This document shows, piece by piece, positions 1,292 through 6,414 of a DNA stretch of 64,000 bases. Where the stretch lies: contig NZ_JAJNCL010000002.1 of the NCBI RefSeq assembly GCF_021025955.1, positions 671,626 through 735,625 of the forward strand, read 5' to 3'. A program made the position numbers and the translations under genes. A model generated the notes under the pieces. That model was not told the DNA's origin. It was given only the letters and a program-made list of their open reading frames with translations, and ran no database searches. The first letter of the stretch is position 1; each line of letters opens with the position of its first letter. This DNA comes from Rhodococcus qingshengii. GTDB taxonomy: Bacteria; Actinomycetota; Actinomycetes; Mycobacteriales; Mycobacteriaceae.

Positions 1292-1317
1292 ATCCGGGCC
1301 GCCTGACTAGATCCGGG
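1282..1317. repeat. 17-bp direct duplication at a convergent gene end
   Basis: GCCTGACTAGATCCGGG occurs at 1282-1298 and again at 1301-1317, separated by 2 bp. The first copy holds the TAG stop of the tetR gene, and the second holds the stop codon of the opposing diiron gene. The unit therefore duplicates the stop region for both strands. Confidence 0.85.
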
Positions 1318-2296
1318 TTTTGTCGGAGCGCTTCGGCTCGCCGCGATAGCGTGCGTAGTCGCCGTCGATGCGCAGCTTTCGCCACACCCGCTTCGACACC
1401 GGGTTCATCAGACCGAGTTCGTCTGCCAGGGACCGCATTTCACCGAAGTAGTTACCCAGAATTCGGCGCGAATGCGGGCTGCCCCAGAAAGCACTGGTCA
1501 TCACGTCTTCGGGAATGCCGAATTCTTCGGCGAATTCCTTGGGCGGTGACATGATTTCGCCTGCGAGCCAACGCATCGCGCCGGGGAAGGCAACCGACGT
1601 CATTGCCCGACTGGTACGACTGAGCCTGGGGACGTGATTGCGCAGGAACTCGTGCGCAAACGAAATATGTCTCGCTTCTTCGGCGATGTGAATCTCCATG
1701 GTGCGGAGCATCGCCGGCGGGGTGTCCTTACCTTCGCGGATCAAGTCCTTCTGGAAGTGGTCGATCGGTTCTTCTCCGGCAAGAATGCCGATGAAGAAGA
1801 TGACCGGGAACTTGGCACCCAGCACTCCGATGATGGGCGAGAGGCGCCGGAACATCGGACGCATACCCGGCACATCGATATCCATACGATTGACGAGTTC
1901 CTGGAACATCTGGATGTGATTGCACTCTTCGGTCATCTCGTGCAGGCAGTACCGGAACTCGGGCGACTGGTTGGGAAGCGCCATGATGTACTGCAGCATT
2001 CCCCGGATCAAGATGCTCTCGAACGCCGAACCCACCTTGGTCACGTTGGCCTGACGCCACATTCCCATCGCGATTCGACGTTCCAGGGACTGCTCCTGGT
2101 ACCACTGCGTCGCTCCGAGGGGATCCGAGACGGACGAGAGCACCCACCTCGGATCGTGTGGATCGATCGCGAACTCTGGTGAATCCCAGTCGATGTCGAG
2201 GTAGGGATCAAAACTGCGGGCAACTGAACCCTCGGACAAAGTCTGCAGTACCTCGTGGTACGGCATTTCCACTTCGATCGACGCTGACCGAGCCAT
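1307..2296 (-). CDS. AurF-type diiron oxygenase
   Basis: A 329-residue member of the AurF-like (p-aminobenzoate N-oxygenase) diiron family. These enzymes use a carboxylate-bridged iron pair to activate O2. Ligand motifs are visible as EMTEECNHIQMF near residue 140 and HIAEEARHISFAHEF near residue 225, both of the E-E-x-x-H type. The ATG at 2294-2296 is preferred over an upstream in-frame start because GAGGAGA lies just upstream. It lies 104 bp downstream of the DoxX-like gene on the same strand, and an inverted repeat at 2360-2376 lies in that gap. The substrate is unknown. Confidence 0.8.
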   Translation of the reverse strand: MARSASIEVEMPYHEVLQTLSEGSVARSFDPYLDIDWDSPEFAIDPHDPRWVLSSVSDPLGATQWYQEQSLERRIAMGMWRQANVTKVGSAFESILIRGMLQYIMALPNQSPEFRYCLHEMTEECNHIQMFQELVNRMDIDVPGMRPMFRRLSPIIGVLGAKFPVIFFIGILAGEEPIDHFQKDLIREGKDTPPAMLRTMEIHIAEEARHISFAHEFLRNHVPRLSRTSRAMTSVAFPGAMRWLAGEIMSPPKEFAEEFGIPEDVMTSAFWGSPHSRRILGNYFGEMRSLADELGLMNPVSKRVWRKLRIDGDYARYRGEPKRSDKTRI

Positions 2297-2359
2297 CGGT
2301 GTCTCCTCACGGCCAGTCCGCCGATTGCAGTCGACGGACTTGAATGAAGTCAAACATAA

Positions 2360-2376
2360 TGGGACACCGCGTCCCA
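2360..2376. promoter_or_regulatory. Inverted repeat upstream of the diiron oxygenase, candidate operator
   Basis: TGGGAC-ACCGC-GTCCCA is a perfect 6-bp inverted repeat with a 5-bp spacer, about 65 bp upstream of the diiron oxygenase start. Its arm (TGGGACAC) recurs as GTGTCCCA at 463-470 in front of the TetR gene. This suggests, but does not prove, a shared regulator. Confidence 0.4.
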
Positions 2377-2400
2377 CGCAACCCCTTAGGTGGCCTGATT

Positions 2401-2841
2401 TCAGGCCCGACGGAGCGGAATGATCTCGCGAACCTTCTCATCTCGGAGATACAGTCCGGCCCACATGACGATTCCGGCGTAGACGGCAAACAATGTGGTA
2501 CTCACCAGAGGCTGTTCAGCTCGAAGGTTGGTCAACACAGCACCACCCAGGTAACCGGTGAGCAGAATCGCGCCAAGCGCGGCGGTTCGCGGAATCACGT
2601 ACAGCGCAAGGCAGATCAACTGCACAACCCCGGCTGTCAGGGCGAGAGAGTCCGGCAACCCCAGTTCGGCCGAGGCATCCTTGACCGTCTGCAGATTGAA
2701 GATGTGGATGATGCCGTCGAACAGCATGAAAAGAACGAACAGACCACTCAGGACGTATCCGAGCTTGCGCGCGGTCCCCGAAGGTGCCGTTCGTGTTGCA
2801 TTACCCGAAAGGGTGTCGTGGTGGGCAGGCTGGGTGGTCAT
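2401..2841 (-). CDS. DoxX-like integral membrane protein
   Basis: A 146-residue protein with four predicted membrane helices: LGYVLSGLFVLFMLFDGIIH, LALTAGVVQLICLALYVI, AALGAILLTGYLGGAVL and LFAVYAGIVMWAGLYL. The conserved HIF..VKDASAELGLP segment follows helix 1, as in the DoxX_2 family. An ATG at 2839-2841 preceded by AGGGAGA is chosen over one 13 codons upstream. Members of this family often sit beside oxidoreductases, but their function is mostly undefined. It probably lies upstream of, or is co-transcribed with, the diiron oxygenase. Confidence 0.75.
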   Translation of the reverse strand: MTTQPAHHDTLSGNATRTAPSGTARKLGYVLSGLFVLFMLFDGIIHIFNLQTVKDASAELGLPDSLALTAGVVQLICLALYVIPRTAALGAILLTGYLGGAVLTNLRAEQPLVSTTLFAVYAGIVMWAGLYLRDEKVREIIPLRRA

Positions 2842-2983
2842 CGGAATCTCCCTGGACGAAGGCGAGCGGCCGGTTGCCACTTCGCTTGCAATAACGACTC
2901 CCCAGCGATCGAAAACTCATCGCGCCGACAACTACTACGCACCCGCGTTCAGGAAGATCCACCTCTCATGGTCTGATGGACGG

Positions 2984-3060
2984 TGACACGGGGTGCCGAA
3001 AAAGTCGGCTGAGATCAGACCCGATGAACCTGACCAGTTAGCACTGGCGGAGGGATGTCG
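2984..3060 (+). promoter_or_regulatory. TPP (thiamine pyrophosphate) riboswitch
   Basis: All conserved blocks of the THI element are present in order: CGGGGTGCC (2989-2997), CGGCTGAGA near 3006-3014, ACCC-GATGAACCTGA (3019-3033), a P5 hairpin CCAG-TTAGCA-CTGG, and GCGGAGGGA ending at 3055. P1 can form between GACA (2985-2988) and TGTC (3056-3059). The ribosome-binding site GGAGGG (3049-3054) of the next gene is part of the aptamer's 3' side, 8 nt before the ATG at 3063. Ligand binding would therefore be expected to hide the site and block translation directly, with no separate expression platform. Confidence 0.93.
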
Positions 3061-3062
3061 AC

Positions 3063-3854
3063 ATGACCGAACAGCAATTTCAGCGCGCTCTCGAACTGAA
3101 CGAGCAGATCGTCCTGATCACCGGTGGCGCCCGCGGGCTCGGAGCCGCACTGAGCCGAGCATTCTCCCGCTCAGGCGCCCGGGTGATCGTGAACTACAGC
3201 AAGAGCCGTGATGCCGCCGAGGCCCTGGTCGCCGAACTGGGCGAGGATCGCACCTTCGCAGTCCAGGCAGACGTGACGGACCGCAGCTACGTCGATCAAT
3301 TGTTCGCCGCTGCACTCGAGCGATTCGACGCACCGATCTCGACCGTGGTCGACAATGCACTCGTCGACTTCTCGTTCAACGGTGACGCCCGGCCGAATGC
3401 GGACACGATCACCTGGGCCGACTTCGACTCCCAACTACGCGGAGCTGTCGCCGGGACACTCAACACCACCCAGGCAGCACTCCCCGGCATGCGAGAACTC
3501 GGGTTCGGCCGAATCATCACTGTCGGAACCAATCTGGTCCAGAATCCGGTAGTTCCGTACCACGACTACACCGCAGCCAAAGCCGCACTGTTGGCACTGA
3601 CGCGGACATTGTCCGCCGACCTCGGTCCGGACGGGATCACCGTCAACATGGTCTCCGGTGGCTTGCTCCGCACCACGGACGCGAGTGCCGCGACGCCGGA
3701 AGCGGTGTTCGACATGATCGCTGCAAGCACTCCCCTGCGCCGGGTCACGACTCCGGACGAATTCGCCGACGCCGCACTGTTCTTCGCCTCGCCCTGGTCG
3801 CGGGCCGTGACCGGCCAGAACCTGGTTGTCGACGGCGGACTCGTCAAGAACTGA
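3063..3854 (+). CDS. Short-chain dehydrogenase/reductase under TPP riboswitch control
   Basis: A 263-residue classical SDR of the FabG-like type. It has the NAD(P) motif TGGARGLG (20-27), VDNAL in the NNAG position (96-100), and YTAAK with Tyr169 and Lys173. The residue 13 before the Tyr, normally the catalytic Ser, is Thr156. The start overlaps the end of a TPP riboswitch that contains its ribosome-binding site. The stop overlaps the ATG of the monooxygenase by one base (TGATG), so the two are translationally coupled. No recognisable thiamine gene is nearby. A role in oxidising or salvaging a thiamine moiety or fragment is inference only. Confidence 0.88.
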   Translation: MTEQQFQRALELNEQIVLITGGARGLGAALSRAFSRSGARVIVNYSKSRDAAEALVAELGEDRTFAVQADVTDRSYVDQLFAAALERFDAPISTVVDNALVDFSFNGDARPNADTITWADFDSQLRGAVAGTLNTTQAALPGMRELGFGRIITVGTNLVQNPVVPYHDYTAAKAALLALTRTLSADLGPDGITVNMVSGGLLRTTDASAATPEAVFDMIAASTPLRRVTTPDEFADAALFFASPWSRAVTGQNLVVDGGLVKN

Positions 3855-5134
3855 TGGGTGCACAGCTACGGATAGGTGCGTTTCTTCTCGGGTGCGGACA
3901 TCACAGTGCAGCGTGGCGTCATCGTGATTCACCGGTCGAAAGGCTCAGCGACATCGCGTATTACGAGTCGCTCGCCCAGATCGCCGAACGCGGCAAGTTG
4001 GACGCCGTCTTCTTCGCGGACGGTCACAGTGTTCGCGAACCCGAATCGGGCGCATCGTGGTTTCTCGAGCCGATCACCGCATTGACTGCCATGGCCCGCG
4101 CGACGGCGAATGTCGGCCTGGTCACCACCATCTCCACGACCTTTTACACGCCGTTTCACGCGGCACGACTGTTGGCATCGCTCGACCACATCAGCGGCGG
4201 ACGGGCGGGTTGGAACGTCGTGACCTCGATGTTCGACCAGGAGGCGCGCAACCACGGACTCGAGGCGATGCCCGACCATGTATCCCGATATGAACGAGCC
4301 GACGAATTTGTCGAAGTGGCCCTTGCATTGTGGGATTCATGGTCGGAAGACGCTCTGATCCTCGACCGGGCGGGACGTTTTGCCGACGCGAGCAAGATTT
4401 CTCGAATCAATCACGACGGCAAGCATTTTCGGGTGGACGGCCCGTTGACGGTTCCGCGATCCCCGCAGGGTAGGCCGGTCTTGTTTCAGGCAGGGGCGTC
4501 CGAGCAGGGTCGCGATCTGGCTGCGCAGCGCGCCGAGGCGATCTATTCGGTTGCCTACGACCTACCCAGCGCACAGAGCTACTACGAAGACGTGAAATCG
4601 AGAATCGAACGCGCCGGCAGGGATTCCGCCACCGTGGCCGTGATGCCTGGACTAGTCACTTACGTCGGCAGCACGGTCGCCGAAGCCAGGGCGAAGAAGG
4701 CCGAATTGGACCGCCTTCTGCCCACTGAACAGTCGATACGCCAACTGTCATTGTTCACCGGACAGACTTGCGAAGACTGGGATCTCAACGGGCCCGTGCC
4801 CCCGTTGCCTCCACTCGAGGCATTCACCGGGCCGCAGGGACGCTACGCAACTATTCTGCGGATCGTCGAGAAGGACGCACCGACTGTGAGGGAACTCCTC
4901 GGAACGCTGGCTGCAGGTGGTGGTCACGCAACGATGATCGGCACACCGGAGTCGATTGCCGACGAGATGGAAACCTGGTTGCACGGTCGCGGTGCCGACG
5001 GCTTCAATCTGATGCCGCCGACCTATCCCCAGGGACTGGAAGATTTTGTCGACTACGTGATTCCGGTGCTGCAAGCTCGCGGGTTGTTCCGACGCGAATA
5101 CGAGGGAGCGACTCTGAGAGAAAACCTCACCTAG
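3854..5134 (+). CDS. NtaA/SnaA/DszA-type flavin-dependent monooxygenase
   Basis: A 426-residue luciferase-like (LLM class) monooxygenase of the NtaA/SnaA/DszA group, which uses FMNH2 supplied by a separate reductase. Typical segments are FADGH near residue 55, GLVTTISTTFYTPFHAARLL, the family hallmark GGRAGWNVVTS near residue 118, and RPVLFQAGASEQGRDLAAQ. It is coupled to the SDR (1-base overlap), so it should respond to the same TPP riboswitch. Relatives act on nitrilotriacetate, sulfones and other ring or chelator substrates. The substrate here is unknown, and no flavin reductase lies next to it. The last codons overlap dinB convergently by 4 bp. Confidence 0.88.
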   Translation: MGAQLRIGAFLLGCGHHSAAWRHRDSPVERLSDIAYYESLAQIAERGKLDAVFFADGHSVREPESGASWFLEPITALTAMARATANVGLVTTISTTFYTPFHAARLLASLDHISGGRAGWNVVTSMFDQEARNHGLEAMPDHVSRYERADEFVEVALALWDSWSEDALILDRAGRFADASKISRINHDGKHFRVDGPLTVPRSPQGRPVLFQAGASEQGRDLAAQRAEAIYSVAYDLPSAQSYYEDVKSRIERAGRDSATVAVMPGLVTYVGSTVAEARAKKAELDRLLPTEQSIRQLSLFTGQTCEDWDLNGPVPPLPPLEAFTGPQGRYATILRIVEKDAPTVRELLGTLAAGGGHATMIGTPESIADEMETWLHGRGADGFNLMPPTYPQGLEDFVDYVIPVLQARGLFRREYEGATLRENLT

Positions 5135-6414
5135 TCCGGAAGTAGCGGCACCGACAGATCTGGATCGCGCCCCAGTAGCACTCCCCTCGTGAGAGCCGCC
5201 GAGCCGAATTTCTTTCGGACGCTGTCCATCGCCGAGTCGAGGGCGGCAGTGTCCGGACCAGCGAATCCTGGACCGCCGAAGGGCAATTCGAGCTGCTGGG
5301 CACCGTCACGATCGAGGTTGGAGACTGCTACCCCGATCAACGTGATGCCCTTGTCCGAGATTGTCGGTATCGCTTCGTCCAGCAGCACCATCGAGGCGTT
5401 CAGCAGCTCCGCTGTGTCAGCCGTGGATCGGCGCAGCGTGTGAGATCGAGTAGCCCGCGTGAAATCGGCGAAGCGGAGCCGGAGCGTGACCGTGCGCCCC
5501 GTCCGCTGCGCCGAGCGCATGCGTCGACTGACACGGTCGACCAGGGACATCAACGACGCATCGAGTTCTGCGCGGGGATGGGATCCGCGACCCAGCGCAT
5601 GCTGCGCACCCATCGAACTACGGCCGCGATAGGCCCGGACCGGGCGCGGATCTCGGTTGTGCGAGAGCGCGTAGAGATGCCGGCCGGCGCCGCCCCCGAG
5701 AATCGACACTATCGAGGATTCGTCGTGCCGAGCGATGTCGCCCACCGTCACGATGTCGAAGTTTCGCAGCTTCCGGGCGGTGATCTTGCCGACGCCCCAC
5801 AGCTTCTCGACAGGCAACGGATGCAGGAATTCGGTTTCGCCCTCTGGTGGCACCCGCAGCAATCCGTCGGGTTTCGCGAACGCGCTCGCGACCTTGGCCA
5901 GGAACTTGGTGCGCGCGATGCCGACCGTGATCGGTAGTCCGACCTGCTCGGCGACGTCACGCCTGAGGTTCGCACCGATCTGCAAAGGCGTGCCGACGAT
6001 CCGGGCCAATCCCCCGACCTCGAGGAACGCTTCGTCGATCGAAATTCCCTCGACCAGCGGCGACGTGTCATGGAAGACCTCGAACACGTCTTTGCTCGCT
6101 TGCGAGTATGCGGACATTCGCGGAGGAACGACTATCGCCTGGGGACACAGGGAACGGGCCTGACCACCACTCATCGCAGTTCGAACCCCGAAGGCCTTGG
6201 CCTCGTAACTTGCCGCCAAGACCACTCCACCACCGACGATGACCGGCCTGCCCGCCAGAGCCGGGTCGTCGCGTTGCTCGACTGATGCGTAGAACGAATC
6301 AAGGTCCGCGTGCAGGATCGTTGCGTCACCCGTAGGTCGAAGACCCCCAAAATGAGTACCGCCGGGGTGATTACCTGGGGTTTCTCGATCCAGCGGTTCA
6401 TGCGACACGAACAT
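5131..6414 (-). CDS. dinB: DNA polymerase IV (Y-family)
   Basis: A 427-residue translesion polymerase. The catalytic carboxylates are seen in LHADLDSFYASVEQ (residues about 34-47) and in SIDEAFLEV near residue 125. A helix-hairpin-helix (KLWGVGKITARKLRNF) and a little-finger domain follow. QLELPFGG near residue 375 matches a beta-clamp binding motif. The first about 30 residues are poorly conserved, so the ATG at 6412-6414 is plausible but not certain. Mycobacteria carry similar dinB paralogues. I do not see a clear LexA box upstream. Confidence 0.9.
   Translation of the reverse strand: MFVSHEPLDRETPGNHPGGTHFGGLRPTGDATILHADLDSFYASVEQRDDPALAGRPVIVGGGVVLAASYEAKAFGVRTAMSGGQARSLCPQAIVVPPRMSAYSQASKDVFEVFHDTSPLVEGISIDEAFLEVGGLARIVGTPLQIGANLRRDVAEQVGLPITVGIARTKFLAKVASAFAKPDGLLRVPPEGETEFLHPLPVEKLWGVGKITARKLRNFDIVTVGDIARHDESSIVSILGGGAGRHLYALSHNRDPRPVRAYRGRSSMGAQHALGRGSHPRAELDASLMSLVDRVSRRMRSAQRTGRTVTLRLRFADFTRATRSHTLRRSTADTAELLNASMVLLDEAIPTISDKGITLIGVAVSNLDRDGAQQLELPFGGPGFAGPDTAALDSAMDSVRKKFGSAALTRGVLLGRDPDLSVPLLPD

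Follow-up and report, generated by a model that had tools for sequence, protein, structure and literature searches.

A TPP riboswitch-controlled reductase and monooxygenase pair in Rhodococcus as a candidate for salvage of the thiamine pyrimidine

Several described systems lie close to the locus reported here. In rhizobia thiMED is the thiamine salvage operon, and the salvage steps performed by TenA and YlmB are hydrolytic. The TenA/YlmB/ThiXYZ route yields 4-amino-5-hydroxymethyl-2-methylpyrimidine (HMP) from two damaged but real vitamers, 4-amino-5-aminomethyl-2-methylpyrimidine (AmMP) and its N-formyl form (FAMP); TenA and YlmB are their known enzymes, and bacterial use of such degraded vitamers is reported to be only partly explained by them (PMC10470507). 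ThiV, a symporter of the sodium:solute symporter (SSF) superfamily controlled by a thiamine pyrophosphate (TPP) riboswitch, is described as the likely HMP importer of SAR11 (PMC11452348; also PMC10881298), and HMP auxotrophy as the commonest thiamine auxotrophy among marine microbes (PMC11452348). The locus in question lies in a 64,000-nucleotide stretch of Rhodococcus qingshengii DNA (assembly GCF_021025955.1, contig NZ_JAJNCL010000002.1, positions 671,626 to 735,625; hereafter the window) and consists of a TPP riboswitch, a short-chain dehydrogenase/reductase (SDR) gene and a luciferase-like flavin monooxygenase (LLM) gene. Its theme would be that of the TenA route, pyrimidine from damaged vitamers, but its enzymes come from families that contain neither TenA nor YlmB. 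Judging from gene context in relatives, it is highly probable that the locus serves thiamine salvage and probable that the pair acts on the pyrimidine side of thiamine; for TPP-repressed salvage of HMP by the SDR–LLM pair, the reading that we favour, we put the probability at about 0.6. The features concerned are as follows.

2979..3072, plus strand: TPP riboswitch aptamer (THI element, RF00059), by cmscan (67 bits, E 5.6e-11; gathering score 54.3)
3049..3054, plus strand: putative Shine-Dalgarno sequence GGAGGG of the SDR, inside the aptamer towards its 3' end (direct masking platform), from the sequence and the Rfam alignment
3063..3854, plus strand: SDR oxidoreductase of the NF006393/PRK08642 type, 263 aa, an open reading frame (ORF) with an NCBIfam match and YxxxK at Y169/K173
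3852..3856, plus strand: TGATG stop/start overlap of SDR and monooxygenase, one base shared, from the sequence
3854..5134, plus strand: NtaA/DmoA-family FMN-dependent monooxygenase (LLM class), 426 aa, an ORF matching TIGR03860 and Bac_luciferase PF00296

The riboswitch is the sole Rfam match at the gathering threshold in the window and spans model positions 1-105 of 105, which bears out the complete THI element claimed by an earlier reading of these letters without database searches (the sequence-only reading). That reading had also placed the ribosome-binding site of the SDR in the 3' side of the riboswitch; the putative GGAGGG does lie inside the aptamer, and the SDR ATG at 3063 is still within the Rfam match. 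Folding the leader strand alone by minimum free energy gave an uninformative z = -0.95. The assignment of the two genes in the sequence-only reading, to an SDR and an NtaA-type flavin monooxygenase joined by TGATG, agrees with the curated NCBIfam models, the SDR passing NF006393 at 434 bits (cut-off 292) and the monooxygenase TIGR03860 at 536 bits (cut-off 279.7). As that reading had held, no thiamine family appears among the NCBIfam and Pfam matches. Its phrase "no known thiamine gene" is right for the window and wrong for relatives, where thiD, thiE, thiM and a ThiV-like symporter accompany the SDR. The window has the TPP riboswitch; neighbouring genes for thiamine salvage or transport are found in its relatives alone.

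The arrangement is conserved within the genus. Among 28 genomes, the window's own included, an SDR at E <= 1e-60 is present in 22; the LLM lies directly behind it in all 22, and a TPP riboswitch directly before it in 21 of them. Riboswitch, SDR and LLM therefore do not stand in this order by chance, and the combination of the three recurs in other actinobacteria. A wider sample, the named loci, comprised the best 80 loci from one SDR scan of genome contigs (more existed); it overlaps in part with the genus set (e.g., G001/L030 and G002/L029), and the counts from the two are not additive. The nearest named SDR among these 80 is that of R. erythropolis NBRC 15567. The three-part unit occurs at 47 of the 80 loci and in two phyla, its carriers including Rhodococcus, Nocardiopsis, Marinobacter, Halomonas, Oceanimonas, Oceanisphaera, Alcaligenaceae and one Rhizobium, while riboswitch and SDR without the LLM are found at nine. 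Three loci (L046, L081 and L089) were added by eye to these pattern counts and later confirmed by the covariance model. Homologous pairs do not generally lack the riboswitch, a lack that would have refuted the sequence-only reading: SDR and LLM occur together at 50 named loci, and 47 of these have it. In a whole-genome Rfam search of 50 named genomes, 44 showed a sense riboswitch ahead of the SDR among the matches listed; the other six are three Achromobacter and three SDR-only genomes (L102, L035 and L045). The SDR tree of these loci also counts the window. SDR and LLM distances correlate with r 0.897 over 51 rows, a value reached in none of 1000 permutations, and the two genes have therefore travelled together. 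Nine riboswitch-SDR genomes and three SDR-only genomes were examined for an LLM ortholog elsewhere and had none; four of these twelve hold only paralogs, 47-50% identical. In viral contigs, 26 pattern matches to the LLM contained no relative.

Thiamine genes adjoin the SDR in two separate settings. The first was found on plasmids, of which 16 records carry the SDR at E <= 1e-70 and 12 were read. On Gemmobacter aquarius and Neorhizobium plasmids the annotation reads thiM-thiE-thiD-SDR, thiM being preceded by a TPP riboswitch, and thiD overlaps the SDR or stops 3 bases short of it. The window's SDR family is thus the fourth gene of a thiMED operon in these bacteria; no monooxygenase follows it there, whereas the window's SDR leads a unit that it shares with the LLM alone. 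On four Rhizobium plasmids a TPP riboswitch lies ~2.3 kb ahead of the SDR. Three of the four are unannotated; among these ThiM was confirmed in one (L164) and ThiD in another (L165), other genes of the operons being assigned at most by eye. The three-part unit itself is present on two Pseudochrobactrum plasmids and one Rhodococcus plasmid. The sequence-only reading had seen the novelty mainly in the monooxygenase pairing. That is too narrow, as the link to thiamine is more constant for the SDR than for the monooxygenase, to judge from the nine riboswitch-SDR loci without LLM and from the plasmids with riboswitch-thiM-thiE-thiD-SDR. The second setting is an SSF symporter, found at 28 of 100 clustered loci and with its own TPP riboswitch in 27, as at the ThiV loci of SAR11 and others. 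PF00474 was found in both symporter members scanned, and we infer that the co-located symporters are ThiV orthologs; none was seen at the Rhodococcus loci clustered. At three Aeromonadales loci (L050, L061 and L062) a dihydroorotase-like gene, recognized by eye and probably an ancestral neighbour, lies between the riboswitch-controlled symporter and the riboswitch-SDR-LLM unit. The metagenome-assembled genome (MAG) of L061 has other TPP riboswitches before a TonB-dependent receptor-like gene (by eye; L146 1438-3582) and before the gene of a 139 aa membrane protein (L147 934-1353).

The host genome bears on which branch of the pathway is affected. It is 100% complete and belongs to the Rhodococcus group, and three TPP riboswitches were found in it, that of the SDR-LLM pair included. 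The second precedes a gene of the TenA family, accompanied by an NMT1-type binding protein and an ABC transporter, parts like those of the TenA/ThiXYZ system, and the third before a thiO-like gene with thiG, thiE being divergent. ThiC was not found in this genome. Compared with the relative G002 there is a clean deletion, with ~1.75 kb containing thiC and its riboswitch gone and thiD kept (contig C3 of the window's genome G000, L154 ~4230-4292, against L155; both flanks align at 94-95%). A break between contigs does not account for the missing thiC, the syntenic stretch being contiguous on C3 with only the ~1.75 kb gone. Since thiC is deleted and the thiazole-branch genes are kept, the host would by genotype be a pyrimidine (HMP) auxotroph. 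The single-contig relative G001 is likewise without ThiC. The medium reported for R. qingshengii IGTS8 contains thiamin and is therefore uninformative on thiamine-free growth (PMC8557817).

The same asymmetry is seen across the SDR-bearing named genomes, where ThiC is undetected in 19 of 50 and ThiG in one, a MAG (Fisher p 6e-6 for 50 genomes, rows not independent). ThiD-type matches occur in all 51 genomes when the window's is counted, 45 of them over the model cut-off and six below it (183-200 bits against 205); TenA-family matches are missing in 15 of the 51. Among the ThiC-less genomes, four that carry no MAG label (L039 Marinobacter, L063 Pollutimonas, L077 Alcaligenaceae and L095 Candidimonas) show two detected TPP riboswitches each, both at the SDR locus, one before the symporter and one before SDR-LLM, though with the strict filters used a weak third riboswitch could be missed. 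No TenA was found in three of these four.

The mechanism that we favour can be set out stepwise. At low TPP the ribosome-binding site would be free and SDR and LLM would be made; with TPP bound it would be buried in the aptamer. The LLM would act on a damaged pyrimidine vitamer and oxidise its C5-CH2-X carbon, candidate substrates being AmMP, FAMP or another 5-CH2-linked derivative. The hemiaminal would collapse to 4-amino-5-formyl-2-methylpyrimidine, the SDR would reduce this aldehyde to HMP, and ThiD would phosphorylate HMP for ThiE. At SDR-only loci the aldehyde would come from another source. Overall this would amount to an oxidative, TenA-independent branch of HMP salvage. Enzymes of the TIGR03860 type oxidise a carbon adjoining N or S and release the leaving group, and those of the NtaA type hydroxylate the heteroatom-adjacent carbon with release of an aldehyde. 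We offer this particular chemistry, with 5-formylpyrimidine freed by the LLM and reduced to HMP by the SDR, as a tentative proposal that may well prove wrong. It is also conceivable, if on balance unlikely, that some ThiC-less bacteria have no riboswitch-controlled source of pyrimidine other than an oxidative HMP route independent of TenA and ThiC, in which the LLM cleaves damaged pyrimidine vitamers (perhaps even thiamine) at C5-CH2-X and a dedicated SDR reduces the resulting 5-formylpyrimidine.

The rival that survives best, at a low probability, puts the pair on the thiazole side, where it would process hydroxyethylthiazole (HET), carboxy-HET, oxidised thiazole or its sulfur and feed ThiM. 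DszA and YtnJ, relatives of the LLM, cleave C-S bonds, and the thiMED operons of Gemmobacter and Neorhizobium carry thiM beside thiD, which leaves room for a thiazole-side role of the SDR and counts to that extent against pyrimidine salvage. In these operons, however, it is thiD and not thiM that abuts the SDR, and the carriers keep the thiazole branch more constantly, with ThiG found in 49 of 50 and ThiC undetected in 19. The co-located transporter, moreover, resembles ThiV, which has been proposed as an HMP importer (PMC11452348).

A little less probable still is a role in the detoxification or turnover of thiamine antimetabolites (bacimethrin or oxythiamine, for example) or of damaged thiamine, induced through lowered TPP and bringing no gain of HMP. 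The 31 of 50 carriers that keep ThiC would suit such a role, and oxidative enzymes of the LLM family are often catabolic. Set against this, the SDR sits in thiMED operons, and the ThiV-like symporter adjoins the pair in genomes that lack ThiC and in which just two TPP riboswitches were detected, both of them there.

We consider it very unlikely that the pair replaces ThiC in an oxygen-dependent de novo synthesis of HMP. The pair persists without ThiC, including in the window's genome with its clean deletion, and occurs in four genomes without detected ThiC or TenA; but ThiC is present in 15 of the 22 genus carriers, several ThiC-less carriers keep TPP-controlled transporters and the pair offers no ring-building candidate. 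ThiC-less R. equi, its carriage of the pair left aside, is reported to be a thiamine auxotroph (PMC2947987). Equally improbable is a general-purpose SDR (3-oxoacyl-acyl carrier protein (ACP) reductase) with an unrelated LLM, under a TPP riboswitch for non-thiamine reasons, which could appeal to the NCBIfam name and to riboswitch-less relatives in Lysobacteraceae, Caballeronia and others but would leave two separate thiamine contexts (thiMED and ThiV-like), two expression platforms and a riboswitch in 44 of 50 genomes (among the matches listed) to coincidence.

Other observations weigh against pyrimidine salvage by the pair, or at least against its generality. One genus genome (G014) has the pair with no TPP riboswitch at gathering score within 20 kb, and the pair is without a riboswitch of its own at three of the best 80 SDR loci, all Achromobacter. 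At 21 of the 80 the SDR has neither riboswitch nor LLM, and three Caballeronia plasmids carry it with no TPP riboswitch in the stretch scanned; because of these loci and plasmids, which have neither partner, the SDR may have a wider role. Except for a single S in place of T156, the riboswitch-less SDRs keep the active-site letters, and at the thresholds used SDRs with and without the riboswitch are separated by no position; as the active-site letters are the same, the activity may be shared with these relatives and regulation alone may differ. LLM co-occurrence at the named loci is conditional, since the loci were chosen by SDR likeness, and among 396 evenly drawn phylum genomes an LLM ortholog (E <= 1e-150, four candidates scored per genome) was found in the window's genome alone, a patchy distribution. 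The two-gene unit contains no flavin reductase, no search having been made for a partner elsewhere in the genome. Within the genus, ThiC was not found in 10 of 28 genomes, seven of which carry the pair; absence in 7 of 22 carriers compares with 3 of 6 non-carriers (one of these 75% complete), and carriers are thus no more often without ThiC than non-carriers. ThiC absence was accordingly dropped as a sign of association and used only to indicate the affected branch. Three of the sub-cut-off ThiD matches fall in ThiC-less genomes (G426, G428 and G433), and some absences among the 50 named genomes may be gaps. One pattern speaks for complementarity of TenA and LLM but is only suggestive and weak in numbers: of the ThiC-less genomes, all four that have no TenA (G430, G442, G451 and G460) carry the LLM and all four that have no LLM ortholog (G429, G439, G453 and G466) carry TenA, neither being present in 0 of 19 ThiC-less against 6 of 31 ThiC-bearing genomes (p 0.07).

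NCBI names NF006393 "3-oxoacyl-ACP reductase". All 34 aligned SDRs, the window's among them and all from riboswitch- or LLM-linked loci, match this model at E <= 1e-100, and five plasmid SDRs likewise match it. The thiamine-operon context makes the name doubtful for these SDRs, and the label is probably wrong for the thiamine-linked members of NF006393. Q124, T156, Y169 and K173 are invariant across the 34 sequences, and no solved relative of the SDR was found at E <= 1e-40. The LLM is by its TIGR03860 score a sequence-family member alongside NtaA, DszA, EmoA, YtnJ and riboflavin lyase; its solved relatives at E <= 1e-30 include YtnJ/MoxC, nitrilotriacetate monooxygenase, DszA, EDTA monooxygenase and riboflavin lyase, and none of the 12 among the matches listed is named as a thiamine enzyme. 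It is set apart from TIGR03860 relatives in the genus, its next paralogs being ~50% identical. Two such paralogs in the window's genome (G000:C33:519073-520338 and G000:C48:74168-75448) are 49-50% identical to it and have no adjoining TPP riboswitch.

The leaders of 56 riboswitch-bearing named loci were compared for complementarity to the aptamer. In nine, the window's clade included, the 3' motif of the aptamer immediately precedes or covers the start of the SDR, so that TPP binding should block translation by direct masking. In 15 others, all Pseudomonadota, the leader carries the 8-base anti-aptamer CCTTCGCC, an exact complement of GGCGAAGG in the aptamer; among 200 shuffles, 1 to 8 gave complementarity of this type. 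A complement of at least 7 bases is found in 20 of the 56 (the 15 with CCTTCGCC and five with 7 bases), and 27 fall in neither class. In several leaders (such as L048, L053 and L062) CCTTCGCC continues into a CCTC-loop-GAGG that covers the likely ribosome-binding site, an arrangement that fits a sequestering switch. One operon is thus served by different expression platforms, direct masking and anti-aptamer. Terminator scans of three leaders gave no sense-strand terminator, and a perfect-stem hairpin search gave none in 56, a result that carries no weight. L081 and L089 appear by eye to have a T-rich hairpin before the SDR.

Part of this regulation may have been noticed before. Rodionov et al. 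reportedly listed in 2002 a THI-regulated oxidoreductase, OarX, which may be the window's SDR. If so, SDR regulation was already noticed, and the LLM pairing, the ThiV-like and thiD contexts and the carriers without ThiC and TenA still ask for a function. Published TPP-regulon comparisons cover thiamine synthesis and transporter genes (PMC3766115, PMC2211319), and one reports TPP targets without known relatives (PMC2211319). The words "monooxygenase" and "dehydrogenase" are absent from the main texts of both, their supplementary gene lists lying outside the comparison. The portions considered of an R. erythropolis media paper (PMC10534354) and of a paper on R. ruber ZM07 (PMC10269752) have no bearing on the pair. 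None of the open-licence titles and abstracts listed by our searches describes the riboswitch-SDR-monooxygenase unit, though supplementary TPP-regulon gene tables could list these genes. The suggestion of the sequence-only reading that the pair recycles thiamine or one of its moieties is probably right, judging from the gene context of relatives. If HMP salvage by the pair is true, an oxidative branch would be added to HMP salvage, genome-based auxotrophy calls would change and the name "3-oxoacyl-ACP reductase" would be corrected for the thiamine-linked SDRs of NF006393. The pair is readily testable, with one operon, defined vitamers and a natural thiC deletion in the host.

Two divergent neighbours lie upstream of the riboswitch in the window, by eye a diiron oxygenase-like ORF (1307-2377, minus strand) and a small membrane protein (2401-2880, minus strand). 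Relatives of the first occur at 7 of 100 clustered loci and of the second at 9, so neither is a constant part of the module. Downstream, a DNA polymerase IV-like ORF (DinB, by eye; window 5131-6414, minus strand) is convergent with the monooxygenase gene, whose last 4 bases it overlaps.

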